The notes below the pieces were generated by a model that saw nothing but the letters and a program-made list of their open reading frames with translations, did no database searches and was not told where the DNA came from. 64,000 nt of DNA from Dillenia suffruticosa (lineage: Eukaryota; Streptophyta; Magnoliopsida; Dilleniales; Dilleniaceae). The translations under genes and the position numbers were made by a program. The DNA is taken from positions 3,177,001 to 3,241,000 of the forward strand of contig JAVTVX010000027.1 in assembly GCA_033439265.1 (NCBI GenBank), in the 5' to 3' direction. Positions 6,795 through 54,040 of the stretch are shown here, in pieces; the first letter of the stretch is position 1; each line of letters begins with the position of its first letter.

Positions 6795-7206
6795 AAGTCT
6801 TGTGATGATGTTCGGTTCTAGAAGGAGGTTGGTCATTATTCTGCAACGTGGGTGAGAGAGTCTAAGAATTTTTTCAAAGAAATCATGCTATTTACCGGCA
6901 ATGTGATTGGAAGTTAAAAGATTATCTTCTATAGGTGCTGTCTCACAAACTAGATGACTGAAAAATCATTGTATAGCTTTATAATTGTATTGGCATCTAT
7001 CCGAGTATGTTTCTTTGTATATGTATTGTCTTGAAATTTTCATATGATTGGTTAATGTTCTTCTGACTTGGCCTTTAAATTAAGCATGTGGTTGATGAAA
7101 ACTCAGGTTGACCAACCCCCGCCTTGCATTTTTCCAACTTGTTAGGAAAGATTATCTGGTGGGTTGGGTTTGGTTAATGAACAGAGGTCCAATTAGCACG
7201 GTATAC

Positions 7207-7241
7207 GGTTGGAGGTTGGAGGTTGGAGGTTGGAGGTTGGA
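7207..7241 (+). repeat. Minisatellite of five GGTTGGA units
   Basis: Five perfect head-to-tail copies of the heptamer GGTTGGA lie about 410 bp after the RNR1 stop codon. The G-doublets could form a two-tetrad G-quadruplex on this strand. Confidence 0.9.
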
Positions 7242-8920: not shown

Positions 8921-9101
8921 AACTGCGCCAACCAATATCGATGATTTGAACTCTTGCCCTCACAACAGCATCCAGAGGAATGTATGTAAACACTTACTTA
9001 TATGTCAGCACCATTTGCCAACTATGCTAACATACCAATGTTGATGATTTGCACTCTCACCCTCACAACATCTAGAGGAATGTTCACTTACTTATATGTT
9101 A
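8921..9101. repeat. Imperfect direct repeat of about 70-85 bp
   Basis: Two diverged copies (about 8921-9008 and 9020-9101) share the order: CAAT..GATGATTTG, CTCTTGCCCTCACAACA or a near match, AGAGGAATGT, CACTTACTTATATGT. This looks like an old local tandem duplication. No coding role is visible. Confidence 0.6.
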
Positions 9102-11915: not shown

Positions 11916-13133
11916 AACCTAGGATTCATGAATTTTGTATTTTTATATTATTTTTATGATTATATATAAATATATACCCATAATACTCATAGAACGTTGT
12001 TACTTCCTTACAAAATATATGTACAATATATTTTTAATGCAGGTTAGTTTATAGTTATATAGGTAACATTTTTCTTATCATGATTTCTACATTTCTTCAT
12101 GAATAAAGAAGAAACATGATTTTATAATGTAAAGGATTTATTTTTTTCATAGGTTTTGAATGTTCTTACATAATTTCTCAAATTACAATTCAATCAAGTC
12201 AAGAACATTAAAAAAAAAAATCCAGGAGAGATCTTTTTATTACTTAAAACTATGAAAAATTATGCACAAAAAAAAATCTGTTTAATAACAATTTAGTAAA
12301 CTGATCCAAATAATAAAAATTGATGAGTTACCAAAATGCGCATTTTAATATTATTGCATAAATAAAATATTTTGAATTAACTTTTTCAATCTAAATAATG
12401 TTATTATAAGAATTTTTATGAATATTTTTATTTTTCATATCTCCATTTATTTTTTTGTCTCCAATTATTTGTAGAAATTGCGAACCTGACCCTCAAGCCA
12501 ACACCCCCACCACCGCCTCCAAAAACAGAGGCATTATACGTGTCAACATACGAGAACACCGAAAACACAGCCTACAACACAGAGCCGAGAAGAAGATACA
12601 GAGGAGTCAGACAGAGGCCATGGGGAAAATGGGCAGCTGAAATCAGAGACCCTTTCAAGGCTGCAAGAGTCTGGCTGGGCACATTCGACACTGCAGAAGC
12701 TGCAGCACGAGCCTACGACGAAGCCGCTCTTCGTTTTCGAGGAAGCAGAGCAAAACTCAACTTTCCGGAAAATGTCATTCTCCGAGCATCTCCGGAGGAA
12801 TCTCCCGCGACCCAGTTGACCATTTCGGATTCTTCCAACACCCTTTTGAGGAACCCTATGTTGGATTACCAGGTTGTTCAGAATCATCCGGAATCTGAAA
12901 ATCCACTGTTTCGGATACAGGGGAACGAGAATGATTACAATGAGGTTTTGAGTTATTCTCACAATCAAAATGATGATCTTTTGGAACAATTGATGAGGTC
13001 TTCATCTTCTAGTTCAATGGCTAATCAAATGCAGTCTTCATCGTCATCGCCACCGCCTTCTTCATCCTCATCAGCTTCTCAGTTTTTGCCTGGTCAACGG
13101 GAGATCGGGAGGCGGGGAAAGGAGAGAGAATAA
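11301..13133 (+). CDS. AP2/ERF-family transcription factor (ERF subfamily, group X/ABR1-like)
   Basis: This is a nuclear DNA-binding regulator expected to bind GCC-box type sites in ethylene, ABA or wound responses. Two exons, 11301-11667 and 12475-13133, join in phase (G|AA) and give 341 residues. One AP2 domain covers about residues 163-221 ([20 protein letters not shown] ... LNFPENV). The Ala and Asp of WAAEIRD mark the ERF rather than the DREB subfamily. The acidic and serine-rich N-terminus, a six-proline run before the domain, and the single intron ahead of it resemble the ABR1/RAP2.6/ERF110 group, which is how I place it. ATG 11301 (MANSRN) is preferred over the in-frame ATG at 11286. 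The last 18 residues are basic and unlike the family: a possible recent frameshift near the stop is discussed in the findings. The 807-bp intron holds a long AT repeat. Confidence 0.9.
11871..11910. repeat. (AT)n microsatellite in ERF intron
   Basis: About 20 uninterrupted AT units lie within the single intron of the ERF gene. It is likely to vary in length between individuals. Confidence 0.95.
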
Positions 13134-24893: not shown

Positions 24894-27800
24894 TCAAGCC
24901 CAATTTGAATAGTATGGTGCTGAATGAACAGCATGACACTTTGATCCTGAGCCAAAACCAAGTTCATCCTCACAAAATCCTACTGGTTCATCACCCCATT
25001 TGCTTTGCATGTCTTCTACAACTTCATCCTCACGACGTTGGGATATCTTGAGGAGATCTCTTTCAATCTCTAAATCCTCTTCTACCTTTGCTCGTGGAGG
25101 CCCACTTGAATCTACTAAATCTCGAGTAGCTCTTAAGGGGAGTCTTGGCACCTCTTCCTGTACATATGCTCGAAAATTGTTTCTTGAAGGCTTTATCTTT
25201 GTGCAGAACACTTCTACATAATTACTTAAGCAACCCCGGTCGTAAACATTGACTCCATTATCAGCTCTTCTACGGAAATTCTCATATGTTGTCTGAGGAA
25301 ATTACGCCAGCAATAGCATGAGGTTAGTGCAAAACAAGATGGCTGAAAGCTAAATGGTGTTGGAAACAGAAATTTGACGTGCATAAAGAAATTTGATGGA
25401 CCTGGTTTGTGGCGATAAGGTACAAATGGAAGCCTGTAAGACCTCCCACAAACCACAAAGCCAAGAAGCAGTAGACCATTAGCACAACTGATGCGGGTGT
25501 TTCTTTCATTGCCCTCCAGATAGTCCCATAATCATCAGCAAGAAACTTTATGTATAAGCCCGACATTGCAAACACAAAAATACAGAGAAGAGCTGATGAA
25601 GAAATGAAGAGGAAGACGCTACGGTAGTTTCTCTACACAAGAAGTTTCGAAGTTAGCCCTTTTACTGTGGCCAAACCGGAAAGTAGATGTATCAACTGAT
25701 AAAACTATTCAAAGAAAGCGATCAAATGAGGGCATTGCTTTCACTCATTGTTCCCGATTTACAAAGGACTAATCCTTTTTTACTTCTAGAAGTTGAAATA
25801 AAGTATGTAAATTTATTAATCTAATCTAATGAACTGATTAGAATGCTTCAACTAGCATCTCACATCCTTTATAAAGTAAAATTATTTTGTTGCAATTAGA
25901 AAAGTTTCACTTTAGCACAATTATTCGCATTGATCTTCCCTCTTTTAAAACTAAGACCAAAACTAGGGCTCAGTAGGGGAATGGAAAAAGGAAATGTGAA
26001 AGTCACAGAAAGGGACGGGCAAAAACACTTTAAAAGAGCACATACCACTCCAATGCATTGGCCGACCCAAGGGCAGTGGTGATCAAACCGCTCCACACAA
26101 TTATTGCATATTGAGCAATGAGAGCAACGGGGAGGACGATAAAGCATGCATGTATCACAGTACTTGACCCTCACAGGAATACCATTGACAAGGACTTCTT
26201 TGGTACGGGGAAGCTGTAGGGTTGGGGTTTGTCTTCCACTTCCTCCACATGGAGCGAAGGCTTCATTACACAACTCCTCCTCTGGAGGATGTGCATTGCG
26301 AGGCACAATGCCTGGATCACGTGATGAAGTTAAGAGAAGCAGCACCAGTACCTAACATGATCAAATGATCTAAGTGATCAAACACAAGTACCTAAAGCAG
26401 ATGAGTTCGGCGTCTTTAACTCTCGTAAGCTAAATGAAACCTAGAATATAAATACATGAACAGTTTGATTGATATAAGGACTGTGGGGCTCAAACAGGTG
26501 CTACTTATATAATGTCCACTGGGATCAGTGAAAAGAAAACCAAGAAACTGCCCAAGCCCAGAAGCTGATGACAGACAGAACTAACCTGAATCAGGAAAAG
26601 GATTGCTACCACAACAATTATGTATCCTGTATTGGACTCCGGAAGTTCTTGTAGGAGATGCCTTGCAACAAGTGTGCAGAATATAATAACAGGTACAAAG
26701 ATAAGTGATAAGGTGACAATCAGTGATTTTGCATCTGGTCCAAAAATTAACCTCCCATTTAAAACAAACCTCTGCAAGCAAAGACAAACATGAAATGATC
26801 AGAATAACCCAACATGAAAATTGATAGCATCAATAGTCATGTAGTTGGGGAACAACAGGAACAGAGCTGAAGGTTCTCCAAAATTTAATATGGACCAATT
26901 TATATTTCAATTGGTAAGAACTTTATGGAGTGCATAAAAGATACATAGGGGAACAAGTATCATGGTCACGCTCATTGAGCTAAACCTCATTTACCATCTA
27001 GTGCTTCATGTCATATCATGAGAAAAATATCAAATTTTTAAAAAGATGAAATTTTGCAATCAGAAAAATATAGTACATTAACAAATTAAAATACCAATAA
27101 TGAGATCATCAGAAAGACGACTATAATTTCCTCAGTTGGTAGAACCAACCAAATCGGTTTGGGTTGTTTTGCAGTAAAGACTAAATTTATTAGTGAGACA
27201 AGAGAAACGATCGAACATAGAGCCATGTCATCTCAAATGACATTAGCCCAACACGAACACTGTAAAAGAAAGAAAAGTCCAACAAAACCAATCTTCCGTT
27301 TGCAGGTCCAACCAAAGGCCCATGGGAACACCACTTCATTAAGGACCAACATCTTTAGAAAGACATAACCTCATCAATCCCAACAACTGATTCCTTTTTG
27401 GTAAGCTTTGACAAAGATTCGCCATCTATCACCCATTTAGTAGAAACAGAATCTAGCATTAAAGTAAGCTAAATAAGCAAGAACTAATCAACTTCATGGG
27501 TAATCAAGATTACGATTGCAATGCATAGAACCCCGGATAACTGAACAAGAGGAAGATATCAATGAATGATCCACGCTGTCTTGAAACTAGCCCACCGGTT
27601 CTAACAAACATGCAGGGCCGTCCAAACAGAGACAGCAACACAAATCTATATTTGCAATGAATTGCAAATTCCTTAGTACTAGAATACCCAGAAGCAAAAA
27701 GAAAAAGTAAAAAAAAAAAAAGAAAATTTCATAACAAAGCACCAGAATACTCAGAACCAGTCTCAATTAGCTACATTCAACCTGTTTTAACAACAATTCT

Positions 27801-37300: not shown

Positions 37301-37853
37301 CCAAGGTTACCGAAACAAGGAGAAATTTGGAACACAAGGTTGGTTATATACTTGATGATGGAAGGTCAAGCAGTGTGGTTGTTCCCATGTGTGTGCTTGT
37401 GAAAATATATATATGAGTAAGAAAACTGAATTATTAAAGATGTTTTGAGGGCTTGAACTTGAATATCATCCTAAAGAGAATCTTTAAAGTCTCGGATTGG
37501 GACATTTTTAGGAGTTTTGCTGATGTCTATTAGACATAGAGCTAGCACTGACTTTTATATCTTCTTTGATGCAGATGAGCGCTAATTGTACCATGGTACC
37601 TGTGCCTGTGAAATCTCACACATACCGTCTTGTATCTGTTGTTGAGCACTTTGGAAGGGCTGGTTGGGGCCATTACACTGTGTACAGAAGAGTAAGAGAT
37701 AAGAGGCTCCAAGAGGATCCAGATAAACAAATGGAGCCTTTTCCTTCGCGCTGGTTCTGTATATCAGATTCAGAAGTGTTCAGTGTTTCGGAAAACGATG
37801 TTCTTGCTGTGGAGGCGAGTTTGCTATTCTATGAGAGAATTGTCCAAGGTTAA
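33929..37853 (+). CDS. UBP27: Ubiquitin carboxyl-terminal hydrolase 27-like (USP/UBP family)
   Basis: This is a cysteine protease that removes ubiquitin; Arabidopsis UBP27 sits in the mitochondrial outer membrane. Ten exons join in phase: 33929-34213, 34335-34461, 34732-34832, 34939-35169, 35523-35591, 35722-35850, 36010-36147, 36528-36590, 37000-37338, 37575-37853, giving 586 residues (Arabidopsis about 494). An N-terminal membrane span (IQVVGLLSIAGLILAL) precedes the Cys box GLRNLGNNCFLNVILQ, nucleophile Cys88. Zinc-finger-like CRTC and CSNC pairs follow. The His box is VVEHFGRAGWGHYTVYRR, with catalytic His527, and the tail has WFCISDSEV and SLLFYERI as in the family. Exon 3 must start after the acceptor at 34731, because the earlier AG at 34712 breaks phase. 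The extra length is mostly in exon 9, whose donor (AAG|GTTGGT) is less certain. The last exon is where a large tandem duplication begins. Confidence 0.92.
34293..34325 (+). repeat. Poly-T tract of 33 in UBP27 intron 1
   Basis: An unbroken T run ends 9 bases before the exon 2 acceptor (ATGGTTCAG) and so acts as, or sits in, the polypyrimidine tract. Length variation could affect splicing. Confidence 0.85.
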
Positions 37854-39138
37854 CAGGTTTTGCCTGCTCCATCTACCAATATTTTGGAGTTGATCGGTAA
37901 CAGCTGCTGGGAAGTTTGGCGTAGGTGTATGACAGGCAGCTCAAGAGAAGCCCTAGAAGTCAAGTCAGGATAGCTTGCCTGTTAGTTCGTAGACAACACA
38001 GTGCCCTCTTTGATTTTTTTTTTTCTTTTTTTTGGGACTAAATTTCTATGTACTCTACAAAAGGGCAAGATTCTGGTATCAACATTGCCCGTGATGCTTT
38101 CTTGTATTACCGTAAATTGTACCAAACATTGACCACATAAAATGATATCAAAATTTGTTGCATTCTCTACTATTGAATTGAGTCAATGAAGAAGGTGCCC
38201 TGTTGCACATTTTGACCCAACTCCACCCTCTTGGGTTTGTTTCGGATTCTTCTCGAAATTTTTGCTGAAAGGTGGTGCTTGCCTTACCTTTTGCCTTGTT
38301 TAATGTCTAAGATTGTTAGTCCATGAAAACTGTTCAAATAACTTTGAACACTGGTTGCCGGACTGTATTGCATGGCCAAATCCCGTTGCACTCCAGTTCC
38401 TCATATACTGGGGAACTTTTTACCTCATCTGCGTAGCTTTGTGGAACCCTCCTTCACCCCCATCTTTTTGGATGTTCACTGCTAAATCTATCCAAGTGTT
38501 ACATAATAACTCACAAATCCCATGAATTAAACAAGCACAGAAATCATGTATACTATATGAACACATGGGAGACGAGGGAGATTGTGTGGGTTCAAGATTT
38601 CTCTTCAAAATCTTTTACAAAATTGAATGATATTTGGATGCCTTCATTTTCTTAGCTTTGGATAAAAGGATTGTAGGTGAGATATGAATATGTACAAGGT
38701 ATTTGGCACATTTTGTAGCTAAAATATGCCCGTCATGTGATAAGTTGCCCATGATGTATACTCTTGATCTTAGCATAAAGGCCGAGAAATGTATGATGTG
38801 TACTCTTGTAAATACTAATAGTAGATTCTCAGAATTTATGGAGTACAATACACTTTTCCTCTTTTGCTTGTAGTGCAATACTGCATCTGCATAGCACACA
38901 CTATCATACATCATATACACTGGATTGAACGGCACACCAGATGCACACGTCCTGTTTATACACACCCCCCCTTTCCAGCTACTTGGCGTGCAAGAGACTC
39001 GCTAGCCCTCCCTCTCTCTCACTCTTTCTCTCTACGTACACATGCACACATACCTTTTTTATGGTTAAGTACATAATAGCAAAGTAGCTCAAGGAGGAAT
39101 CATAATCTTCTGAGGCATTCCATTACGAATCTGCAGAC
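37854..39138. other. UBP27 3'UTR and spacer, copy A
   Basis: The first several hundred bases are likely UBP27 3'UTR. The rest lies downstream of the - strand peptide gene. An open frame 38313-38525 (+) keeps similar text in copy B (47329-47646), including AALQFLIYWG-like words, but it has no recognisable domain and lies in presumed UTR, so I do not call it a gene. Confidence 0.5.
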
Positions 39139-39531
39139 TCAGTTATGAATAGGAGGGTTCTTTTCGGTGGGACTGTAGTCCACTGCAAGTAACTTTTCAA
39201 CATCTTCTTCTGGAATAAAGGCTTCCTCACTTTCATGACTCTTCTCAGCTCCGGCACTCACTGCATGCAGATTCCTCCCCTCAACTGAAAATTTGTCGAC
39301 CCGATTAAACAATTTTTTTATTTGAAAAACAAAATCACATAATTATTTTGGCTAACTCTTCAAAAACACAATGAAGGGAAAAAAAAAAAAAAAAGAAAAA
39401 CCCTGTTGATTAGTTCAATCAATAAAAGTCTTTTATAATTATAATAATTTACCTTCTGATTTATTAGAAACAAGATAGAAGAAGACCAATACAGATATGA
39501 ATGAAACTCGTTTGCATGACAGAAATCCCAT
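39139..39531 (-). CDS. RGF/GOLVEN/CLEL-type secreted peptide precursor, copy A
   Basis: This is a small precursor of a tyrosine-sulfated peptide hormone of the root meristem growth factor family, which acts outside the cell through leucine-rich-repeat receptor kinases in root and gravitropic growth. Two exons, 39531-39453 and 39284-39139 on the - strand, join G|TT to give 74 residues. Residues 1 to about 22 form a signal peptide (MGFLSCKRVSFISVLVFFYL). An acidic variable region follows (residues about 27-61). The precursor ends exactly in the conserved hormone, DYSPTEKNPPIHN, then TGA. The DY start (sulfation site), the prolines and the PxHN end fit the family. The longer frame from 39596 lacks a signal peptide, so ATG 39531 is preferred. 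The paralogue in copy B keeps both exons and splice sites. Confidence 0.85.
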
Positions 39532-39969
39532 CTTTGGCTCTTCTTTCTCTTATGTCTTGTTCGTTTCAATTTGTTTGTATCCTCAAAGCTCTTCATCGGA
39601 ATTCCTTATATAGAACCTGATTTGCTTGTGGTTTATACATGTAGTGTGTAAAATCTAGTACTATTCTATTGTCTGCACTTAGAAATTTAGTGTTAATCAA
39701 TGTCATTTGTAGCTTTGTTCGACAAGGTGTCCAATGGAAACAAAACTTGTAGATAAAATATCTACCTAAGCAGATTTATTACCTCTATTTTTATTTATTT
39801 ATCTGTTAATAGTTAATCTTTGTGCTTGCCCTAATATTTGGTTCTTTGCTTTACATTTAAAATCATGTTGTGCTGTAGAAACCATGCAAATTTCTAATTT
39901 CTAGATATGTATCCGGTGAACCCATTTTCGGGTCGATGTAATTAAATTTGATTGGAAGATTGACTTGGG

Positions 39970-40490
39970 GGAAAAATTTAAATTTTTATTTGTACTGACT
40001 TCTTTCATGGAAAAATCACTTTCACATATTCCTTGAAAAGTTTGGAATTTTGCTGTCTGCTTCTCTTTTCCCTTTGTACCTTTTTTTTTTTCTTCTGTAA
40101 ATATTGTTTCCCTTTAATGAAAAAATCATTTTCAGATTTTTAGCAATAAAGAAATTCACAAAGTCTGTTTTCATTATTGGGAAAAGTTTGAGATACCGTC
40201 GGGAAAATCACATTCAGAGAGAAGTTTGAGATATTGCTTTCCCTTCGATGGAAAAATCACTTTCGATATTTATAGAGAAATTTAGAGTTTTGCTGTCTTA
40301 AATTTCTACTTTTGAATTATATATTTGGGGGCATAATTATCTTTGCCTTTATACCCTTTATTCTTCGTCTTCTTCTAATTCTAATAATAAAGGAATTCAC
40401 AAAATCTTTTTTCATTTTTTATGAAAATTTAAAATTTTATTATCTCAAATTTTTTGTTTTAGCTTGTATACTATGTCATAATTTTCCGTC
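39970..40490. repeat. Degenerate repeat block present only in copy A
   Basis: Units beginning GGAAAAATCACTTTC or close variants appear near 40009, 40119, 40199 and 40250, often followed by AGTTT(G)GA..TTTTGCTGTC. The corresponding place in copy B (about 48890-49050) has unrelated, shorter sequence. This is either a local expansion in A or a loss in B. Confidence 0.5.
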
Positions 40491-41104
40491 AACTCAACCA
40501 GCAATACAATGGGTGTATAATTTCCTTAAAAATAGTGATTATTTCATGCACAAATTTATTTAAATTTGCATTCTCATAGTCTTACAAAATTAACGACACA
40601 TAATACATTGGCATACTTTTGAAAAGGTAATATTCAGTTCTTCATTTTCTTGGGAACATGTGAGTAAAGAAAATTCATTCAGATAGAATTAGATTCTAAA
40701 ATCTCTTCCTCTCCCTCTCTCTCTCTCTCTCTTTTTCTTTTTTTACAATCTTGAAAAATTTTCCATTGAAGGGCAAATGCAAGATGTTTTTCTTCTTCTT
40801 TTTTCTGTTATTTATTGTTCTTGTCAGAGAAATAATGATGCTTTAAAGAAACTTTTTTTTATTATTTTATAAATAAAAAAGAACTTCATATGTAGAAACG
40901 ATGGGGAAAAAAATCCCATATTTGAATTTCCAATTAAAAAACATTTTGTAAAGATTGACGTCTGATTTTGTTCTAATGAACAAGTGCATGTCTTCAGAAC
41001 AATAATATAGATCACCCTCTCGTAACATGGAACCAAACCACACAAGTTAAAAGCATTGCCCAGTTTGTCAATGTGAAAGCACAGCTTCAGACATGTAGGA
41101 AACA

Positions 41105-41182
41105 TCAGGGACCCATCTTGATGCCCTTTTTTCCAGCCTGATTTATCAGTGATACACCATGTTCATGCAATCTTCCACACAT
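41105..41182 (-). other. Short reading frame conserved between duplicate copies (A)
   Basis: The - strand encodes MCGRLHEHGVSLINQAGKKG then IKMGP and a stop; copy B (49599-49676) encodes MCGRLPEHGASLINQAGKEG then IKMGP and a stop. The frame and stop are kept, but three of six base differences change the residue, so selection is not evident. The family is unknown. It may be a last exon or chance. Confidence 0.25.
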
Positions 41183-42374
41183 TTCAATTTCGCAATTTTT
41201 ACTATGTGCCTTCTCATGAGTCCCATATTTTAATTTGTGCTTTTTCTCATGCACATTGAATGAGTAGAAGGGTTTCTTTTTTTTCTTTAAATTTTCTTTT
41301 GGGGTTTCTAATAGCAATCGAACCACCCAATGGGCTCCTCCTTCCGTCAAACGCCCGGTCTTGATTCCCGAGAGATTTGATTTCGAAATCATGTAATACC
41401 ATCTTTTCTTTTTTTTTTTTACATCTAAATGATCAATCACACCGGATATGATTAAATTCATTTCGAATCGAATTCAAAAATTTAAAAGTAAAATTTTTTT
41501 ACGTCTATTCTTTTTATACATAATATTTAAATTTAAGATTTTATTTAAAAAATATTAATCTGATAATTAAATCAAATATGTATTAGTTTATGCAATCAAA
41601 AATGTTTTTGCTAACTAAACTAATCGATATGGGTAGTTCAGAAATTTTTTATTTGTGTTTTTCTCTGCCTAGATATTGCTGTATAAATGTGTACTAATAC
41701 CAAGTAAATTTATGTGATGCAAATAATAAGTAATACTCTCGTCCATTGCAAATTTTTTTTTTTTTTTTTTTTTTTTATAATACAAGACAACTTTTGTTTA
41801 TAACCAAAAAAAAAAAAAATCGCTTTACTTTTTCCTTACTCGGATATTGTCGGGGATTTGGATAGGCCGGGGACCATTGTCTCACGTAAGTTGCCATGCC
41901 AGGTGTATGGAGTGGGAGTATGTCTGGTATTTCCTGTCTCATATATTTGTCATAAAAACGATAAAAAAAATCAAATTAATTCAAAATGAGAGAAAATCAT
42001 AAAGCAGGAACCAAAAGTTACAAACTTTAAGAAAGAAATTGTTGGAAATTGGGGGGTCGCCCATGTGGGTTTTGACCCGACGCAAACCCATTTATTAAAG
42101 TTCAAATGGTATGAAAACAAGGAAGGCGGAGTAGTAAAAAGGGTTTGGGTCGGGTCAAAACCCATATGGGTGACCCGACCCCCCAATTTTCAATAGAAAT
42201 AAAAATAAATAAATAAATTGCACCTCTAAAAAAATTAAAGGGTTGTTTTAATAATTTTGTAACGTAATAATAAAAGAAAAATCATCCATCTTTGAACTGA
42301 AAATGATTCCTGTACTTTTGTGATATAACATAAAAATCATCCCTAAAACTTTTGAAGAGGGTAAATTGGTTGTT

Positions 42375-42423
<49 letters not shown>
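42375..42423. repeat. (GA)n microsatellite, copy A
   Basis: About 24 GA units with one interruption near the start. The same tract, with AAAGAG interruptions, is at 51401-51446 in copy B. Confidence 0.95.
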
Positions 42424-42425
<2 letters not shown>

Positions 42426-43599
42426 GTGAAGGGAGTGAGGTTAGAAAAATTAAAAGGGATGTCGAAAATTAATGCCCTCTAAATAATTTATAAAAGTTGA
42501 TTAGATTATACAAGTTTAACTCAGTTTCCTTAAAGCTTTATTTCTTGAGAAGAAAGTGGAGAATGTTTGATTGTTGTGTAACACATTTTAAGAATCAAGT
42601 TAAAATATTACATCTTATAAAAATATTTTTCAAAATTGTCATATATTAAATTTTAAATATGTCTAAACTATATATATATTATTAAGTCATGAAATAAGGA
42701 CAAAATTTACGTGGGAGGAGTTGTTTGAGATGATTTTAACCCAAAAAAAAAATTATCAAATGGAATAATTGTCTCATCTCTTTACGGCAGAGAGACCCTT
42801 TCACCCTTTTGCTTGTCTTATGATAAAAGAAATTTGAAACTCTTGGTCGGTTTTCAGAATAAAAAAATAGATATTTAGAAAATCAATCTCTAAATTAGAT
42901 TTTATAATAATTAATTAGATTTTCAAATACATGTATTCAAGTAGAAAAAGAAAAGAAAAAGAAAAGACTCTCTCTCTCATGAACGAATTAAGGAGAACCA
43001 AACTGCTATGAATATTATAATAGAATATTACGTTATATTCTCTTAATTATAAATCTCGAATTCAAACCATAAAAATACAAAAATTAGATTTGAAAAAGCC
43101 AAATCCTCAATGGGTTCTATAGTGTTCAGACAAGATTAGTCAGACAAATTTCGAATACTGATCGGTGATAAAAAAAATCCGTTTATATCAAAAAAAAAAA
43201 AAAAAAAAGAAAGGAATTTGGGGGGAGTAGGCCATAATGGGCCAGGGAGTCTTGGTAAGAAATGTCTTCGAAATGGGTCCATTGTGTAGTCATGGTCTTT
43301 TCCTTGTCGGGCCGGCGAACTATGGGCCCGAGAAGAATGGTGTGTCACGTGTTTAACCCAAGTTTTGCATGGGCCTCTTGTGGGTGCAATTCCAAGATTT
43401 CGAGGTATTCACGTCACGTGATTGGATTAGAGAATGATCACAGATCACAACTTGGAGATTGATGGTCTAATCAAAATCATGTTGGGGATTATTTCTTAAT
43501 TTGTGTATTTTTAGTGATCGTGGAATCGTGACTTCTTTTTTTTTTTTTTTTTGGTATACATAAAAATCACATTAAGCACGTGTAATAATTCATTAATCT

Positions 43600-43686
43600 G
43601 TCAATAAGTTTCAGCTCAAATGATACATTCTCCCTTTCCATGTAATACGTTCGAGTTCAAGCCCCTATTTATTCACAAAAAAAAAG
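43600..43686 (+). mobile_element. Short tRNA-derived SINE-like element with target-site duplication
   Basis: An 87-bp element has an A-box-like start (CAGCTCAAATGATACATTC), a B-box (GTTCGAGTTCAAGCCCC) and an A-rich tail. It is flanked by 13-bp repeats AATTCATTAATCT (43587-43599) and AATTCGTTAATCT (43687-43699), one mismatch. A related copy lies inverted at 50437-50520. It is too small to encode anything and depends on LINE machinery. Confidence 0.65.
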
Positions 43687-45658
43687 AATTCGTTAATCTT
43701 ATTGCACCTTGTCTCTAGATCAGACTACATTGGAAGAACCATTAGGGCCTCCACAGATTAAGGACAGATGTATAGTATATTAAGTAGGATCCAATAATCA
43801 CATTTAAATTTTAAAATTTTTTATTAAATATATAAAATATATAAATTTGACACCACTTAATTTTTATATTCAACTCTATTAATTTTTTTTTGACTCCGCC
43901 CCTATCGTAGATATTTGAATCAAATTAGTCGAGTTATAATTTTAGACATAGATGAAAAAAAAAAATCTTATCATACCTTGGACAACACATCGGACATGTT
44001 AGACCTTTCTGGGAGAGGTATAGCTTTTATCAATTAAATTTGAGATCATTGAGGTATAGTTTTTATTAATCTCATGAGTGTTTTATGCTTCCCCTCCTCA
44101 CACTACTCCTGACTTTGACCTATAACAAAAAATTAAAAAAAGAAAAAAAGAAAGAAGACTCTTAGACGAATCATAAAATTCGTGAATAGATTAATTAAAA
44201 ATATAAAATAATTAATAAAATCTCTCTTACATGAATAAATTTTGAAATAATTATTTATTTTTCGAAATCCGGAAAAGTTATATGACTTCAAGTCATTACC
44301 GAACTCCATTTTTATCCTATTTAACATTGTTTGCTATTTTTAGCTATCAAATTTGATTTATAATAAATAAGGTGCAATTTGGAGGTGTTTGCTAGGATGC
44401 TTAAGGCGCGGCTGGCCTCGGCAGGGTTTATGCTTAGGAAGTACAAGCTCTTGCTTAACTCAATAGATGAAGAAGAAGAAGATGGTCCCAGGTTTTGCGA
44501 AAGTGGCGCCCTCCTCTAACAGGGATGGCCAGGTTGATCATAGATGCTGGCTTATCGGAGTCGAGTAAGATAAGTTTCGGTAATTTTTTAAACTATTGGA
44601 AAAGTTCTAGTATGCACATTAGCAAGTATAATAGATTTAACGAACTTTATAGTTAACGCAAAATGAATTAATCGAGATCAATAAATTAATTATCGAGTAT
44701 TGATTAGTCAAAGAAAAAAAGAATATCGGTCTATCTCATGGAGCCTGCTCTAATTAGGTATGAAATTACTGACGAACTTAGTATATAAAGGTATTAAATT
44801 CATCAATCAAGTTTTGGATTCGAAACTTAAAAATAAAAAAGATCATGTTAGAAGAACTCCTCCTAAATTATAATCGATAACATTCAAATCAAATTTAAAA
44901 TTAAATTAATTAAAATATAACTCTAAATATTAATCAGTTATTAAAAAAAATAGAGATGAAGTTATAATGGGTTTGGATTTCTCATTTCGCGTGGTACCCA
45001 ATCAGACCCACCCGACTATTTACTACACTTGTTTAGGCCCAACATTTTTGGGCCCTAGTCGGGTTTTTTTTTTATTGTACAAAAATTAGAACATGAGATC
45101 ATCATGTTAGAGGAGTGAGGTTTGTATCACTAGGTTATCCCCTTGAGGATCTCTTTTTTTTGTTATATAAGAATTCGAACCCTGAATCTTAGAATTGGGG
45201 GAGGGGGATCGTGACCTCTAGGCTGTCCCCTTAGGGACATCTAGCCAGGCTTGTCTACTGCTTAACTGACTCCTTGATGATGTTTTTTTTTAATAATAAA
45301 TTATTGATATCCAATAATAATAAATTATTGATATCCAATAATCACGTTAAGTTTAATTAAATTTAATTTGAACTAGATTAGACTCTTAAGGTGACAATTC
45401 CCTCTTAGCACCTATTTTTTCTATCCACAAAATTTAAACCTATAATTTTATTTAAGATATATCGATATTCGATTACTAGATTAACCTGATATTAGTTCGC
45501 TCAACCCTTGGTTGTAACATAATAATTTTCCCAACACAGGTTACTAATTTTTCCCTCCAAATTGTGGTTACTTCTCTTTTAATTTTGTCTTTTGATGCCC
45601 AACTTACATAGAGATTTCTGATACCTACCGCTTAGGCCTGAAAAATTGAGACCATCCT

Positions 45659-45675
45659 CCCCCCCCCCCCCCCCC
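45659..45675. repeat. Poly-C run of 17, copy A
   Basis: Seventeen consecutive C. The corresponding site of copy B became an inverted repeat (53308-53339). Confidence 0.9.
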
Positions 45676-45887
45676 AATGTAGCATGTCCTTGTCCTATTA
45701 GTCATATATGATGGATAAAATCATGCATGTTATTGCCACAAAGGGTTAGTCTTAGCCATACCTCGAAAAAGTTGTATGGATATTTGAAAATTTTGAGACC
45801 CTGGAACCCTTATCGGCTCAAGCACTCTAACTCAAGGACATGCAATACATATATGTATATGCGTGTTTATGCATATATTGCACTCTT

Positions 45888-46112
45888 TCAATTATGAATG
45901 GAAGGCCTCTTTTGTGCAGGTGTGTAATCCAGATGCAGTGTCTCTTCACCCTCGAGCATTCCATCTTCTTCTTTTGTGAAACCACGACCTCCGGCTTCCT
46001 TTTCAGCTCCAGTATTAGCGTTGGGCAAAATCCAGTCCTTAACAGCAAAAGTTTTTAATACCCATCCTAAAATTTCTTTTCTAAGTGACATTAAGTGAAC
46101 TAAATGAGTCAA
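45888..46112 (-). CDS. Second RGF/GOLVEN-type peptide gene, C-terminal exon (partial)
   Basis: The - strand frame ends in LHLDYTPAQKRPSIHN and a stop, again the DY...P...HN hormone pattern at the extreme C-terminus. The preceding text (NANTGAEKEAGGRGFTKEED) shares the AGAEK word with the neighbouring peptide gene (AVSAGAEK), so both descend from one ancestor. The open frame shown has no signal peptide: its N-terminal residues are probably intron. A usable acceptor at 46067 (AAATTTTAG, phase 1 like its neighbour) would start the real exon at 46066. I could not identify the signal-peptide exon between here and the duplication junction at about 46667. It may be missing from this copy, in which case the gene cannot be secreted. 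Confidence 0.6.
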   Translation of the reverse strand: MTHLVHLMSLRKEILGWVLKTFAVKDWILPNANTGAEKEAGGRGFTKEEDGMLEGEETLHLDYTPAQKRPSIHN

Positions 46113-46674
46113 AAATCAAATTAATTAAATTTTAAGTTATAATATATATTAACAAAAGATTTGATCTTTTAAACAAATAATTTTGAACTAGTCAGAATAT
46201 CTTATAAATCACATAAAAAAAATTTTAAAACAGATTGCCAAGTAAACTTTGGTTTATTTAATCTTTAAATTATTTGATCTCTTAATGAATATATATAACA
46301 TTAGCATAACCAGCCATAGAAGCCTTCAACTTGCTCATCCCAACCCCAATCAAAAGGCTATTTGGGCAAGGGGTTAAATATAATTTCAAGCCATGTGAAA
46401 CCATACAATACTGAAATATAAATTTAACTTGCTAGAAAGCACTACACTTAAATGCAATTCAAGTAATCTCCTCAACCCTTATCTGTCAAGAGATTATTCA
46501 ATTAAACCAAACCCTAGTAATCCGGTCACAATAAAATGCAATGGGCAACCATTTTTAGTGGAATTATTTAAATATCATCAAATACTTATTTTATACGATG
46601 AAAAAACCATTAAACATGATGGTGAAGAGACCGGGAGCAATTCAACCGAAAAAATTTTATGATATAATGAAATT

Positions 46675-46888
46675 TCATACATACCGTCTTGTTTCCGTTG
46701 TTGAGCACTTTGGAAGGGCTGGTTGGGGCCATTACACCGTGTACAGAAGAGTAAAGAGGATCCAGGTAAACAAATCGAGCCTTTTCCTTCGCGCTGGTTC
46801 TGTATATCAGATTTGGAAGTGTTCAGTGTTTCGGAAAAAGATGTGTGGAGGCGAGTTTGCTATTCTATGAGAGAATTGTCCAAGGTTA
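46675..46888 (+). pseudogene. Truncated UBP27 last-exon copy
   Basis: This matches the C-terminal third of UBP27 exon 10: HTYRLVSVVEHFGRAGWGHY then TVYRRV. A deletion after that point and others further on shift the frame relative to the intact exon. It has no upstream exons, so it cannot make an enzyme. It marks the left edge of copy B. Confidence 0.92.
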
Positions 46889-48098
46889 AGAGGTTTTGCC
46901 TGCTCCATCTACCGATATTTTGGAGTTGATCGGTAATCAACTGCTGGGAAGTTTGGCATAGGTGTATGACAGGCAGCTCAAGAGAAGCCCTAGAAGTTAA
47001 GTCAGGATAGCTTGCCTGTTAGTTCGTAGACAACACCGGTCATTTTTTTTTTTTTTTTTGGACTAAATTTCTATGTACTCTACAAAAGGGCAAGATTCTG
47101 GTATGAGCACCGTCCGTGAAGCTTTCTTGTATTACCGTAAATTGTACCACACATTGACCACAGAAGATGATATCAAAGCTTGTTGCTTCTTTACTATTGA
47201 ATTGAGTCAATGAAGAACGTGCACTGTTGCACATTTTGAACCCACTCAACCCTCTTGATTACATTTCGGATTCTTCTCGAAATTTTTGATGGTTCTTGCC
47301 TTGCCTTCGCCTTGTTTAATGTCTAAGATTGTTAGCCCATGAAAACAGTTCAAATAACTTTCAAGAGTGGTTGCAGGACCGCACCGCATGGCCAAATCCC
47401 GCTGCACTCCAGTTCCTCATATACTGGGGAAATTTTTACCTCATCTGCGTAGCTTTCTGGACGCCTCCGTCTCTCCCCATCATTTGGATGTTCACTACTA
47501 AATCTATCCAAGTGTTACATAATAACTCACAAATCGCATGCACTAAACAAGCACAGAAATCATGTATACAATATAAACACATGGGAGACGAGGGTGATTG
47601 TGTGGGTTCAAGATTTCACTACAACACCTCTTCCCAATTTACATGATATTTGGATGCCTTCATTTTCTTAGCATTGGATGAAATGATTGTACGTGAGATA
47701 TGAATATGTGCAAGGTTTTTGGCATATTTTGCAGCTAAAATATGCCCGTCATATGACAAGTTGCCTAAGATGTATACTATTGTTAATACTAGTAGTAGAT
47801 TCTCATAACTTACGAAGTACAATACAATTTTCCTCTTTTGCTAGTAGTGCAATACTGCATCTGCTTAGCACACACTATCATACATCATATATACTAGATC
47901 GAACGGCACACTACATACACACATACCTGTTTACACCCCGCTTCCAGCTACTTTACGTGCAAGAGACTCGCTAGCCCTCTCTCTCTCTCTCTACGTACAC
48001 ATGCACACATACCTTTTTTATGGTTTAAGTACATAATAGCAAAGTAGCACAAGGAGGAATTAGAATCTTCTGAGGCATTCCATTACGAATCTGCAGAC
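46889..48098. other. Spacer, copy B
   Basis: This parallels the UBP27 3'UTR and downstream spacer of copy A, with the same landmarks (the poly-T/GGACTAAATTTCTATG block near 47045-47075 and CT tract near 47978). No gene is seen. Confidence 0.55.
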
Positions 48099-48485
48099 TC
48101 AGTTATGAATAGGAGGCTTCTTTTTGGCGGGAGTGTAGTCCATTGCAAGTAACTTTTCAACATCCTCTTCTGGAACAAATGCTTCCCCAGTTTCATAACT
48201 CTTCTCAGCTCCAGCACTCACTGCATGCAGATTCCTCCCGTCAACTGAAAAATTTTCCACCAGATTAAACAATTTTTTTATTTAGAAAACAAAATCGCAT
48301 AATTATTTTGGCTAGCAATTCAAAATCACAATGAAGGAAAAAAGAAAGAAAAAAAAATTCTCTCTTGTTCAATCAATAAAAGTCTTTTATACTTATAATA
48401 ATTCACCTTCAGATTTAATAGAAATAATACAGAAGAGAGTCAATAAAAATACGAATGAGACTCGTTTGTATGACAGAAATCCCAT
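48099..48485 (-). CDS. RGF/GOLVEN/CLEL-type secreted peptide precursor, copy B
   Basis: This is the paralogue of the gene at 39139-39531. Two exons, 48485-48407 and 48244-48099, join G|TT to the same 74-residue length. The signal peptide MGFLSYKRVSFVFLLTLFCI is followed by an acidic region (RNLHAVSAGAEKSYETGEAF, VPEEDVEKLLAM) and the predicted hormone DYTPAKKKPPIHN, then TGA. Frame, exon lengths and both splice sites are kept despite about 10% divergence. That suggests selection on the whole gene. Compared with copy A, the hormone differs at four of 13 positions, changing T/E/N to A/K/K and thus its charge. Expected role: extracellular signalling in root growth. Confidence 0.85.
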
Positions 48486-48750
48486 CTTTTGCTCTTTCTC
48501 TTATATCGAGTTCGTTTCAGTTTGCTTGTATCCTTAAAGCTCTTCATCGGACTTCCTTATATAGAACCTGATTTACTTGTGGTTTTTACCTGTAGTGTGT
48601 AAAATCTAGTACTACTCTATTGCCTGCGCTTTTAACCCTACAAATTTAGTGTTAATCAATGTCATTTGTAGCTTTGTCCGACAAGATGTCCAATTGGAAA
48701 CAAAATTTGTAGTTAAAATATCTACCTAAGCAGATTCATTACCTCTATAT

Positions 48751-48781
<31 letters not shown>

Positions 48782-49598
48782 TAGTTAATATTTGTGCTTG
48801 CTCTAATATTGGTTCTTTGCTTTACATTTAAAATTATGTTGTGCTCTACAAACTATGCAAATTTCTGTATATAAGGAAGAATGGGGCTTTTATCTCACAT
48901 TGGAAAAGAAAAAAAAAAATACCTTGATGCAAATCAATTGAATTCGGTTGGAAGAATAGTTGGAGGGAGAGTATGAATTTCTAAATGACACTTGGGTGGG
49001 CATGGAAATTAATGTTAATTGTCTCTATTTGTTTGTCTTCCTTAAAGACCGTGATTATTTCGCAGGTTCATTCAAATTTGCATTCTCATGGTGTTACAAA
49101 ATTACCAACACATGATACATTGGCATACTTGAAAAGGTAATATTAAGTTTTTCTTTCTTTTTTTTTTGTTGGAAAATGTGAGAAGATTCAGATAAAATTA
49201 GATTTTAAGATCTCTCCCCCTCTCTCTCCCCCTCCCCCCTTTTTTTTTCTTTTAACAATCTTGAGAGATTTTCCATTGAAGAACAAATGCAAGATGTTTT
49301 TCTTCCCTTTTCTGATATTTATTGTTATTGTCAGAGAAATAATGATGCTTTAAAGAAACCTTTTTTTGTTTATTTTATAAATAGAAAAGAGCTTCACATT
49401 TGGAAACGTTGGAAAAAAAATCTCATATTTGAATTTTTAATTGTAAGATTTGCATCTGATTTTGTTCTAATGAACAAGTGCATGTCTTCAGAACAATAAT
49501 ATAGATCAACCTGTCGCAAAATTGAACCAAACCACACGAGTTAAAAGCATTGCCCAGTCTGTCAATGTGAAAGCAAAGCTTCAGACATGTAGGAAACA

Positions 49599-49676
49599 TC
49601 AGGGACCCATCTTGATGCCCTCTTTTCCGGCCTGATTAATCAGTGATGCACCGTGTTCAGGCAATCTTCCACACAT
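49599..49676 (-). other. Short reading frame conserved between duplicate copies (B)
   Basis: Counterpart of 41105-41182, with the same length, frame and stop. See that entry. Its identity is unknown. Confidence 0.25.
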
Positions 49677-49678
49677 TT

Positions 49679-49851
49679 CTTTTTTTTATTTTCACCACCG
49701 ATATCTAAAACTATATTCCAATTAATACACTTTGAGTATTTACGAGAACCCTATTTAGAAACGACTCTTTTAACATAATTTTTACTATTTCTAAGTTTTG
49801 AACTCACAAACTAAAACTCTATCCTATTAAATTAACTGTCCATTTCACAAC
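49679..49851 (-). mobile_element. SINE-like insertion unique to copy B, 13-bp target-site duplication
   Basis: A 173-bp insertion interrupts sequence that is continuous in copy A. Perfect 13-bp repeats CTTCCACACATTT flank it (49666-49678 and 49852-49864). Read on the - strand it begins with a tRNA-like A-box region (AGTTAATTTAATAGGATAGAG), a B-box-like GAGTTCAAAAC, and ends in an A-rich tail. All of this fits a tRNA-derived SINE inserted after the duplication. Confidence 0.7.
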
Positions 49852-50436
49852 CTTCCACACATTTAAATTTCATCATTTTAGTCCTAGCAGAAATATTTAT
49901 ACATACATACATACATACATATATTTAGTTCAACTTTCAGTTTTATAGAATTTATTTCTAAATTTTTTTAAATTATTTTAAGGGTTTTTATTTATTTACG
50001 ATATTTCTTTTAAGCGAACCATCAATATCCATGTCTCTCTCTTTACAGACTTTGTTTCATGTCCCAACAAGAGAAAAACTTGCCGTACTTCAATCCTCTA
50101 TTTTGGAATGTCTACACATCTCTTTCAAATTCAATTATCATATCCTACGCTTTATATTAAAATTTCACAGGCATTACAATAATAATATCCTTTAGCTCAA
50201 TTATTTTCTTTATCATTTGGGCATGACAAGCAAAATATCTACATTGCTCAAAAAGCAATGCTTGAAAACTAGCAAATTTTTATGGTTAGTACCACCATTG
50301 AGCTCTATGATTCTTGGGCTTGCGATTACCAACGTTTTAATATGTTAAATTAATTAATATTTATATAAAAAAATACCAAATGTTATAATTTTTAATATGT
50401 GCTTTCTCATAACTCCCATATTTTAATGTGCTTTTT

Positions 50437-50520
50437 TTTTTCTGGTGTATACATGGGGCTCGAACTCAAACATATTACATGAAGAAGGGGAATGTGTTAT
50501 TTGAGTCGAAACTCGGTGGC
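50437..50520 (-). mobile_element. Second copy of the short SINE-like family, unique to copy B
   Basis: On the - strand this reads GAGTTTCGACTCAAATAACA ... GAGTTCGAGCCCC ... and then a run of A. It is clearly related to the element at 43600-43686. Flanks TTTAATGTGCTTTTT (50422-50436) and TTTAATTTGTGCTTTTT (from 50521) look like a target-site duplication with a two-base difference. Copy A has the empty site near 41232. Confidence 0.6.
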
Positions 50521-51400
50521 TTTAATTTGTGCTTTTTCTCATGCGCATTGAATGAGTAGAAGGATTTTCTTTTTCTTTTTTTCCCTTTAATTTTTCTTTT
50601 GGGGTTTCTAATAGGGATTGATAGTTTATTTTTAGCCATTTCTTTTTCTTATTTTAATTTTATTTTTTTTGTTTTATCTTCTTTATTTTTACTTTTAAAT
50701 TTTAATTTTATGTTATTTTTTCTTTCTCCTATATTGATCTCTCAAATGATAAATTATAAAATTTGAAATTTAGGAGTCAGTTTATTATTATTATTGATTT
50801 CAAATAGCGATTCAATCACACAATCGGCTCATTTTCTGTCAATCCCCCGGTCTTGATGCGTGAGAGATTTGATTTCAAAATCATGTAATACCATCTCAAA
50901 TGTTATGTGTACCAAGTAAATTCATGTGATGCAAATAACAAGTAATACTCTCGTCCATTGCAATTTTTTTTTTTAAAAAAAGTTGTTTATAAGCCAAAAA
51001 AAAAAAAAAAAATCGCTCTACTTTTAAATTAGATATTTTCAGGGATACGGGTGGGGTTGGGGACCCATGTCTCATGTAAGTTGCCACGCCAAGTGTATGG
51101 AGTGGGAGTATGCCTAATGTCTCCTATTAACATGAAATGTCAAATATTCTTTTGTCTCATATTTTTGTCATAAAAACGATAAAAAAATCAAATTAATTCA
51201 AAATGAAAGAAAATCATAAAGTAAGAACCAAAAGTTACAAACTTAAAGAAATTAAAAAAAAATGAAGGGTTCTTTTAATTTTGCAACGTAATAATCAGAA
51301 TAAAAAAAATCATCCATATTTGAACTGAAAATGATTCAAATCTTGTGATATAACTTTAAAAAAAATCCCTAGAAATTTTGGGTAGGTAAATGGATTGTGT

Positions 51401-51435
<35 letters not shown>

Positions 51436-51446
51436 GAGAGAGAGAG
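51401..51446. repeat. (GA)n microsatellite, copy B
   Basis: Counterpart of 42375-42423, with AAAGAG interruptions. Confidence 0.9.
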
Positions 51447-53307
51447 ATGTGAAGGCAGTGAGGGTTAGAGAAATTAAAAGGGATGTCGAAAATTAATGCC
51501 CACTAAATAATTTATAGAAGTTGATTAGATGGGAAGAGTTGTTTAAGATGATTTTAACAAAAAAAAAAAAAAATCAAATGGAATAATTGTCTAATCTGTT
51601 TACGAGAGAGAGACCCTTTCACCCTTTTGCTTGGCTAATGATAGAGAAAGTTGAAAGGTAAGTTGAAAGATCTTCGATAACCGATAATAAAATATAATAT
51701 TAAATTTTATTAATCAAATTTTAAAATTTAAGTTTTAAAATTATAAAAATAAGTGTCAAAAATCCAATCATTAAATTGGATCTTATAATCATTTAAATTA
51801 AATTAGTTAGATTTTTAAATACTCATGGTTAAGTAAAAAAAAAAAAAGAGGGAGAGAAAAAGAAAAAAGAAAAGTCTCTCTCACGAACGAGCTGGGGGGA
51901 GGGGGTCAGATTGGGCCATAATGGGCCAGGCTGTATTAGTAAGAATTGTCTTTGAAATGGGTCCATTGTGGTAGTCATGGTCTTTTCCTTGTCGGCGAAC
52001 CATGGGCTAGAGAGGAATGGTATGTCACGTGTTTCACCCAAGTTTTGCATGGGCTTTAGCGGGTGCAATTCCAAGATTCAGAGTTGTATTCACGTCACGT
52101 GATTGGATTAGAGAATAATCACAGATCACAACTTGGAGATTGACGGGTCTAATCAAAATAATGTTGGGGATTATCTTCTTAATCGAAATAAGACTTTCAG
52201 ACGAATCATAAAATTCGTGAATAGATTTATTAAAAAATAAAAAATAATTAATAATATCTCTCTTTACATGTATAAATTTTGAAGTAGTTATTTATTTTAC
52301 GAAATTTGGTATAATTATTTAACTTCAAGTCATTACTGAACTCCATTTTTTTTTATCCTATTTAACATCGTTTGCTATTTTTTGCCATCAAATTTGACTT
52401 ATAAAAAATAAGGTGCAATTTGGATGTTTTTGTTAGGATGCTTAAGGGGCGGCTGGCTTCACGGGTTTATGCTTAGGTAGTTCAAGCTCTTGCTTAACCA
52501 CATGGTCCCGGGATTTGCCGAGGTGGCCCCCTCCTCAGACGGGGATGGCCAAGTTGAACATAATACGGGGAAAATTCTGGTATGCACGTTAAAAAGTATA
52601 ATAGTCATTTTACAAGACAATTAACTTAAAATGATTAATTATGACTAATAAATTAATTATCGAATACTAATTAATTAAAAAAAAAGAAATATTGGTCTGT
52701 CCTATGGAGTATGATCCAATTAGGTATGAAGTTATCAATGAATAATTGATTTAATGGATGACATTATTATATTTATTAACTAAATTTTGGGTTTAAAATT
52801 TGAGAATAGAAAAAATTATATTAGTAAAAATTTTTTAAATCGGCATGATAAATAAATTTAGTGGCCGTATTTAGGCCCAACATATTTTTGGCCCTAACCA
52901 AGCTAGACTTGTCAATTGCTTAGCTCACTCTATAGTGTGCGTGAGTGCCCGCGTTTTTTTTTTTTTTCCTTAATAAATAAATTAATAATATCCTATAACT
53001 ATATTTAATTTAAATAAATCTGACACGAATCATATTAGATTCTTAAATGATAAATTTCTCTTAACAATTGTTTTTCTTATTTACAAAACTCGAAATCAAA
53101 ATCATATTTAAAATATATTAGTTCCTGACTATTATATTAATTGAGCGTTAGATTAGTTCACATTGGATTATAATATAATAATTTTTCAAAGACAGGTTAC
53201 TAATTTTTTTCCTTTGGTTAACTTCTGATCTTTTAATTTTGTTTTTTGGTGACGAACTTACCTAGAGATTTCTGATAGCTACCGCCTAGGCTCGAAAAAT
53301 TGAGACC

Positions 53308-53339
53308 ATTCCCCCCCCAACCCCCGGCGGGGGGGGAAT
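53308..53339. repeat. Perfect 11-bp inverted repeat at the poly-C site
   Basis: ATTCCCCCCCC (53308-53318) and GGGGGGGGAAT (53329-53339) are separated by a 10-base loop. Copy A has only a C run here. The hairpin probably arose by template switching during replication. Confidence 0.85.
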
Positions 53340-53520
53340 GCAGCATGTCCTTGTCCAATTTGGCATATATGATGGATAAAATCGTGCATGTTATTGCCAC
53401 CAAGGGATAGTCTTTGCCATACGTGAAAAAGTTGTATGATTATGAAATTTGATATTTGAAAATTTTGAGACACCCTGGAAACCTAATCAGCTCAAGCACA
53501 CTAACTCAAGGGCATGCTAC

Positions 53521-53675
53521 ACAGGTGTAGTGTCTCTTCACCCTCTAGCATTCCATCTTCTCCTTTTGTGAAACCACGACCTCCAGCTTCCTTTTCAGCT
53601 CCAGTATTAGAGTTGGGAAAAATCCAGGACTTAACCGCAAAAGTTTTTAATACCCGTCATAAAATTTCTTTTTAA
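53521..53675 (-). pseudogene. Second RGF/GOLVEN-type gene, copy B, hormone deleted
   Basis: The variable region (AGAEKEAGGRGFTKGEDGML, EGEETLHL) is kept in frame and matches the gene at 45888, but a deletion of roughly 80 bp removes the entire DY...HN hormone and its stop. The frame instead runs into CSMPLS and stops. Without the hormone the product cannot signal, so this is a pseudogene although its remaining frame is open. Confidence 0.75.
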
Positions 53676-54040
53676 AGTGATATTACATAAATCAAATGAG
53701 TCAAAAATTAAATTAATTAAATTTTAAGTTACAATATATATTAACAAAAAATATGATCTGTTAGTGTATATATATAACATTACCATAACTAGCCTGCCAT
53801 AGAAGCCGTCGACTTGCTCATCCCACCCCCCATCAAAAGGCTACTTGGGCAAGGGGTTAAATATAATTTCAAGCCATATGAAACCATATATACTTAACAC
53901 TTGCTAGAAAGCACTAGACATGATGCAATTTAAGTAATCTCCTTAACCCTTATTAGTCAAGGGATTATTCAAAAATGCAATTGATTACCAATTAGAATTA
54001 TTTAGATAAGCGACGAGAGCAATTCATCCCTTAAAATTTT

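Follow-up and report, generated by a model that had tools for sequence, protein, structure and literature searches.

The 64,000-nucleotide window analysed here (positions 3,177,001-3,241,000 of contig C27 in the 596 Mb genome of the plant Dillenia suffruticosa) holds two peptide hormone genes, A and B, which belong to the RGF/GLV/CLEL peptide precursors of the GLV1/2 type and are both intact. Each of them consists of a 79-nt exon 1, a phase-1 GT-AG intron, and an exon 2 ending with the 13-mer hormone, and encodes 74 amino acids. Both match the Pfam profile PF21529 (GLV1-2), A with 37.4 bits (E=5e-9) and B with 50.8 bits (E=3.4e-13), the curated cut-off being 28.1. A preliminary description of this DNA, which had proposed two intact 74-codon, two-exon genes with a signal peptide and a C-terminal 13-mer, proves right in all its coordinates and is backed by these profile matches. 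The 13-mer pattern, sought in all six frames of the window, occurs at three places, corresponding to A, B, and a neighbouring copy, C (45929-45891).

The predicted signal peptides of A and B comprise a charged n-region and a hydrophobic core, with a best 12-residue mean Kyte-Doolittle hydrophobicity of 2.52 in A and 2.98 in B. A TATA-like box (TATATAAGGAA) lies 81 nt upstream of the ATG of A and 78 nt upstream of that of B. The six anchors listed for the 13-mer (D1, Y2, P9, P10, H12, and N13) in PMC10448048 are present 6/6 in both hormones, including the Asp expected to be required for cleavage.

A tandem duplication of approximately 9 kb on C27 produced A and B, as well as C and a fourth, hormone-less copy, D, which is placed at the end of the second unit and comes in addition to the three genes described before. 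When the window is compared with itself, the two units (Table 1) are collinear, with matches of 73-90% identity. The unduplicated state is found on contig C12. A genome search with the exon-2 peptide of B gives nine matches, with B first, followed by A and by X on C12, each of the latter two sharing 79% identity with the query over 48 residues, and a second relative, Y, lies 3.2 kb from X. A stretch of 20 kb of C12 (L010 and L011) is collinear, with gaps, with positions 33.5-62.3 kb of the window, and both tandem units correspond to the same C12 stretch, where X is the relative of A/B and Y the relative of C/D. A whole-genome duplication would account most simply for the two blocks, a reading examined at the C27 and C12 blocks only. 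The hormone of Y is DYTPAQKKPPIHN, and that of X is DYTPAKKKPPIHN, letter for letter identical to that of B.

The hormones of A and B differ at positions 3, 5, 6, and 8, and have D1, Y2, P4, K7, P9, P10, I11, H12, and N13 in common. The four differences noticed at the outset, with K changed to E or N, are thereby borne out, as is the statement that the DY, P, and PPIHN anchors (D1, Y2, P4, and P9-N13) are untouched. Counting K, R, D, and E only, the hormone of B carries a charge of +2 and that of A, with E and N at positions 6 and 8, one of -1. Since the hormone of X equals that of B, the A form is derived: polarised by this outgroup, the hormone has undergone four non-synonymous changes and no synonymous one on the A branch and none on the B branch; X has one silent hormone difference. 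As judged from X, A is the changed copy, as had been suspected, and the proposed outgroup comparison, which asked whether the A form might be ancestral, leaves that claim standing. In exon 2 as a whole, the polarised non-synonymous to synonymous codon changes are 7:2 for A and 3:1 for B. A mutation-rate hotspot at A was considered and is ruled out by the equal flank rates of both branches (44 substitutions on the A branch and 43 on the B branch, of 875 positions). The flank divergence between A and B amounts to 0.52 of that between C27 and C12.

Table 1. Coordinates of the GLV-type genes, their relics, and the tandem units; positions refer to the window unless C12 is indicated.
Feature	Position	Strand	Parts and evidence
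Gene A, GLV1/2-type precursor	39531-39139	minus	Spliced 74-amino-acid reading frame and PF21529 profile match
Gene A, parts	ATG 39531; exon 1 39531-39453; intron 39452-39285; exon 2 39284-39139		Hormone DYSPTEKNPPIHN at 39180-39142
Gene B, GLV1/2-type precursor	48485-48099	minus	Spliced 74-amino-acid reading frame and PF21529 profile match
Gene B, parts	ATG 48485; exon 1 48485-48407; intron 48406-48245; exon 2 48244-48099		Hormone DYTPAKKKPPIHN at 48140-48102
Relic C, exon-2 remnant of neighbouring GLV gene	45888-46042	minus	Hormone DYTPAQKRPSIHN at 45929-45891; PF21529 E=7.3e-7 (exon-2 part)
Relic D, duplicate of C	53522-53634	minus	Lacks the hormone and the stop codon; GCGG at the acceptor
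X	L010:5587-5730 (C12)		Acceptor and exon 2 kept
Y	L010 ~8833-9366 (C12)		Intact; signal-peptide-like start at L010 position 9366; acceptor GCAG
First tandem unit	37609-46501		3' part of ubiquitin-hydrolase gene, A, spacer, C; self-comparison
Second tandem unit	46668-53972		3' fragment of ubiquitin hydrolase, B, spacer, D; self-comparison

C, which the preliminary description had presented as a third related gene, is a relic and not an intact gene, having no recognisable exon 1, no proper acceptor, and a hormone in which P10 has become S; the match of its exon-2 part to PF21529 is over the cut-off. A first-exon script that finds the real exon 1 in A, B, and Y detects no recognisable candidate for C and none for D, and the place of the splice acceptor reads GCTG in C and GCGG in D vs GCAG in Y. 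The gap in D corresponds to positions 45850-45929 of C (hormone, stop codon, and the following bases) and starts at the first base of the hormone. At the place where Y has its exon 1, C and D are alike and neither of them is like Y, so exon 1 was lost before the tandem duplication. A duplication breakpoint parting C from an exon 1 that D kept was rejected in view of this sequence common to C and D. Likewise, C was rejected as a functional gene using another start, because the start of its 67-codon frame from the ATG at 46091 does not resemble a signal peptide (the best 12-residue hydrophobicity being 1.31 vs 2.52-3.68 in A, B, and Y).

At the C12 block, decay appears to have affected X. A tblastn search for an A/B-type exon 1 in the 20 kb of C12 gives a best E of 0.47, and none of the eight hydrophobic-run frames in 5731-8850 of the C12 stretch is A/B-like by eye. 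At the DNA level, a 461-nt query comprising the upstream region and exon 1 of A matches only A and B in the whole genome, and a query of the same length comprising exon 2 and the 3' flank matches A, B, and X (75% identity). Loss thus appears to have been reciprocal: of two ancestral neighbours, C12 would have retained Y, and C27 A/B. The presence of a candidate SBT6.1-type site, RxLH, tracks gene intactness: it is RNLH in A and B and RTLH in Y, and it is missing in X (RNQH), C, and D. This putative motif follows an RxLx pattern modelled on the sites RRLR and RRAL in CLEL6 (PMC7162652).

Over the whole coding sequence, the ratio of non-synonymous to synonymous substitution rates (dN/dS) between A and B is 0.98 (dN 0.132, dS 0.135), from 21.0 differences at 173.5 non-synonymous sites and 6.0 at 48.5 synonymous sites. 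By parts, dN/dS is 1.13 in exon 1 and 0.53 in the pro-part of exon 2, and the hormone has four non-synonymous differences and no synonymous one. Coding divergence (27/222) does not differ significantly from that of non-coding DNA (151/1421; p=0.49), and neither the comparison of the hormone with the 3' flank on the A branch (4/39 vs 44/875 nt; P=0.14) nor the 4:0 distribution of hormone changes between A and B (p=0.125) is significant. The dN/dS check that had been suggested for the two precursors, like these rate comparisons, gives what weak constraint would produce. The chance of four changed codons missing all six anchors is 0.049, in a test conceived after the data had been seen and using the anchor list of PMC10448048. 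In a neutral simulation with the observed substitution and indel rates, one copy stays intact with a probability of 0.15 and both with one of 0.022; for one copy, the value is 0.072 when the six anchors are also required and 0.059 when the RNLH residues are added. Given these low probabilities, the two copies are unlikely to have both evolved in a fully neutral way. A retains its signal-peptide-like N-terminus, RNLH, start, splice sites, stop, six anchors, and TATA-like box, which makes some constraint on A plausible; this constraint is probably weak, yet not absent. These rate tests, on the sequences at hand, neither demonstrate nor dismiss positive selection on A.

The rest of the genome provides a frame for these changes. 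A scan with PF21529 gives at least 26 matches, at least 11 of them over the cut-off; these counts are lower bounds, and one of 14 control genomes gives a match below the cut-off. A DY...HN 13-mer is found at 15 places among these matches, four of which score below the cut-off, and is lacking in the remaining 11; four chance matches of other form, also given by the loose 13-mer pattern, were excluded. A genome search with the two 13-mers alone returned no match, these queries being too short to inform. Among the 15 hormones, that of A alone has a non-basic position 8, and it alone holds no more than a single K/R at positions 6-8, where its charge is the lowest. Six pairs, matched by similarity, with synteny checked for C12/C27 only, show the following numbers of non-synonymous hormone differences: B/X 0, C35/C13 0, C24/C26 1, C2/C5 0, C10a/C10b 1, and C17/C20 4. 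The C/Y pair, with two such differences, stands outside this pool, C being a relic. The non-synonymous to synonymous differences in the hormone are 4:0 for A/B vs 6:8 for the six pairs pooled (p=0.09). The C17/C20 pair (C17:7344354-7344548, L025, and C20:7916970-7917107, L027) is a similar one with diverged cores, DYSPVRNKTPIHN and DYSTAREKTPIHN, in which the four nucleotide changes alter three residues of the hormone; DYSTAREKTPIHN, from C20, likewise holds an acidic core residue.

The A-B pattern looks like that of an ordinary duplicate under weak constraint, with a new hormone not proven, and the account that we consider rather likely is that B is the working hormone, while A, redundant and with its constraint relaxed, would be a weaker agonist. 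A would probably still yield a peptide, given the features that it retains. That receptor preference or stability shifted in A, as had been suggested, is not favoured over relaxed constraint by these data. In such a neofunctionalisation, the four changes of A would have been favoured because they altered receptor choice, affinity, or stability, making A a distinct ligand. Their being all amino-acid changing and all on the A branch speaks for it, as do the sparing of all six anchors of the family, which has a chance of about 5%, the unusual core among the 15 hormones, and the contrast with the six other pairs. However, no rate test is significant, whole-CDS dN/dS is about 1, and the equal hormone change of C17/C20 indicates that diverging cores are not unique to A, so that we regard this alternative as unlikely. 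Less likely again is the specific version in which A is a natural charge-reversed RGF ligand, whose sulfotyrosine and His-Asn ends are kept while an acidic residue faces an acidic receptor, and which picks a different RGI receptor or weakly competes with B.

A could also be a dying copy, whose transcription or function has already gone and whose open frame is a leftover. A dN/dS of about 1, a coding sequence as diverged as non-coding DNA, the chance of about 0.15 for a single intact copy, and the decay of relatives at both blocks (C and D, and X without an A/B-type first exon) agree with this view, which nevertheless seems doubtful to us: promoter-proximal DNA, with an A-B divergence of 8.8% in the 5' flank, and the TATA-like box are retained, and so are the start, splice sites, stop, and six anchors, with a joint chance of 0.06 when the candidate cleavage site is included. 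Regulatory subfunctionalisation, where A and B would be retained through expression in different tissues and the hormone changes of A would be incidental, is improbable in our judgement. It would fit the regulatory divergence reported as a route of retention of RGF duplicates (PMC8708909) and the differences in distal upstream DNA, where the match between A and B extends to 39895/48866 and resumes only at 40522/49038; the proximal upstream DNA, on the other hand, is only about 9% divergent.

Several observations weigh against the relaxed-constraint account and the history on which it is built. As a point estimate, the hormone has changed on the A branch at about double the rate of the flank, and the hormone change between A and B exceeds that of five of the six comparison pairs, equalling that of C17/C20. 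The tests are small, with 13 hormone codons and one outgroup, and are still compatible with positive selection or with a silent A. X may have evolved unconstrained for part of its history; its hormone is that of B nonetheless. In addition, one of the eight hydrophobic frames of the C12 stretch, 21-22 codons long and situated 148 nt upstream of exon 2 of X, could serve X, with poor phase-1 donors, as a makeshift, non-homologous first exon; a comparable frame with donors occurs in 311 of 2000 stretches taken at random from the window.

The window has further features besides the hormones. Each tandem unit carries a 28-residue piece that matches PF00443 (UCH) with 24.1 and 23.6 bits, the second slightly under the cut-off of 23.9; the copy of the 3' fragment at 46670-46753 is convergent with B, as is the longer ubiquitin-hydrolase gene with A. 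Runs of C/G at 45659-45675 and 53311-53336 occupy matching places in both units, differ in length and make-up, and are possibly assembly-sensitive. Elsewhere, open frames encode the large subunit of a ribonucleotide reductase (2883-3308), an AP2-domain protein (12540-13130), and a DHHC palmitoyltransferase (25899-26345).

For precursors of the CLEL6/CLEL9 type, which are secreted, processing comprises a pre-cleavage by SBT6.1, the sulfation of a Tyr, and a cut at a conserved Asp (PMC7162652); the peptide is perceived by RGI/RGFR receptors together with SERK co-receptors (PMC11534595). After the presumed whole-genome duplication that gave the C27 and C12 blocks and the subsequent tandem duplication on C27, the precursors of A and B would likewise enter the secretory pathway, be cut at the candidate site RNLH and at the conserved Asp, be sulfated on Tyr2, and be sensed by RGI/RGFR receptors. 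In the RGF1-RGFR1 complex, both peptide ends touch a positively charged receptor surface, an RxR motif of RGFR1 reads the last Asn of RGF1, and the core of RGF1 lies in a negatively charged region (PMC6749341). As A would keep both receptor-read ends and has lost the basic core, weaker binding is predicted, by analogy with the structure of RGF1, another member with a different core. A and B, together with X and Y, form a natural series of hormone change, in which the hormone of B is that of the outgroup, while that of A departs from it at four core positions and keeps its ends, and a comparison of the A and B peptides could show whether the basic core, rather than the ends, sets GLV1/2-type affinity and receptor choice. 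The locus further illustrates neatly how, of two adjacent hormone genes, sister blocks can apparently each lose a different one.

Tandem and segmental duplicates of RGF genes, mostly under purifying selection, have been described in several species (PMC8708909). A search of the main texts of the literature, without figures and supplements, turned up none of the four 13-mers (A, B, C, and Y) in exact form, and a search on the fates of duplicates in the RGF family returned nothing on peptide-core mutants among the matches listed. The hormone reported from peach, DYSPARRKPPIHN (PMC5641559), has identical 13-mers in this genome at C35 and C13, which are other loci of the family and neither A nor B. 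What marks group R of the RGF-like peptides is an R or K at both position 7 and position 8 (Furumizu and Sawa 2021, PMC8329595), as found in B (K7 and K8), X, Y, and C, but not in A, which keeps K7 and holds N8. A and B add to an already well-known family, and their local history is instructive. Like GLV2/RGF9/CLEL9 (AT5G64770) and GLV1/RGF6/CLEL6 from Arabidopsis, they have a short precursor (74 residues vs 79 in RGF9; PMC11534595), a signal-peptide-like start, and a C-terminal 13-mer, a likeness that holds at the family level. The hormone of RGF9, DYNSANKKRPIHN, shares the DY start, basic core, and PIHN end. Unlike Arabidopsis GLV1 and GLV2, however, A holds E6 and N8 in place of a basic core, and the locus comprises a tandem pair with decayed neighbours.

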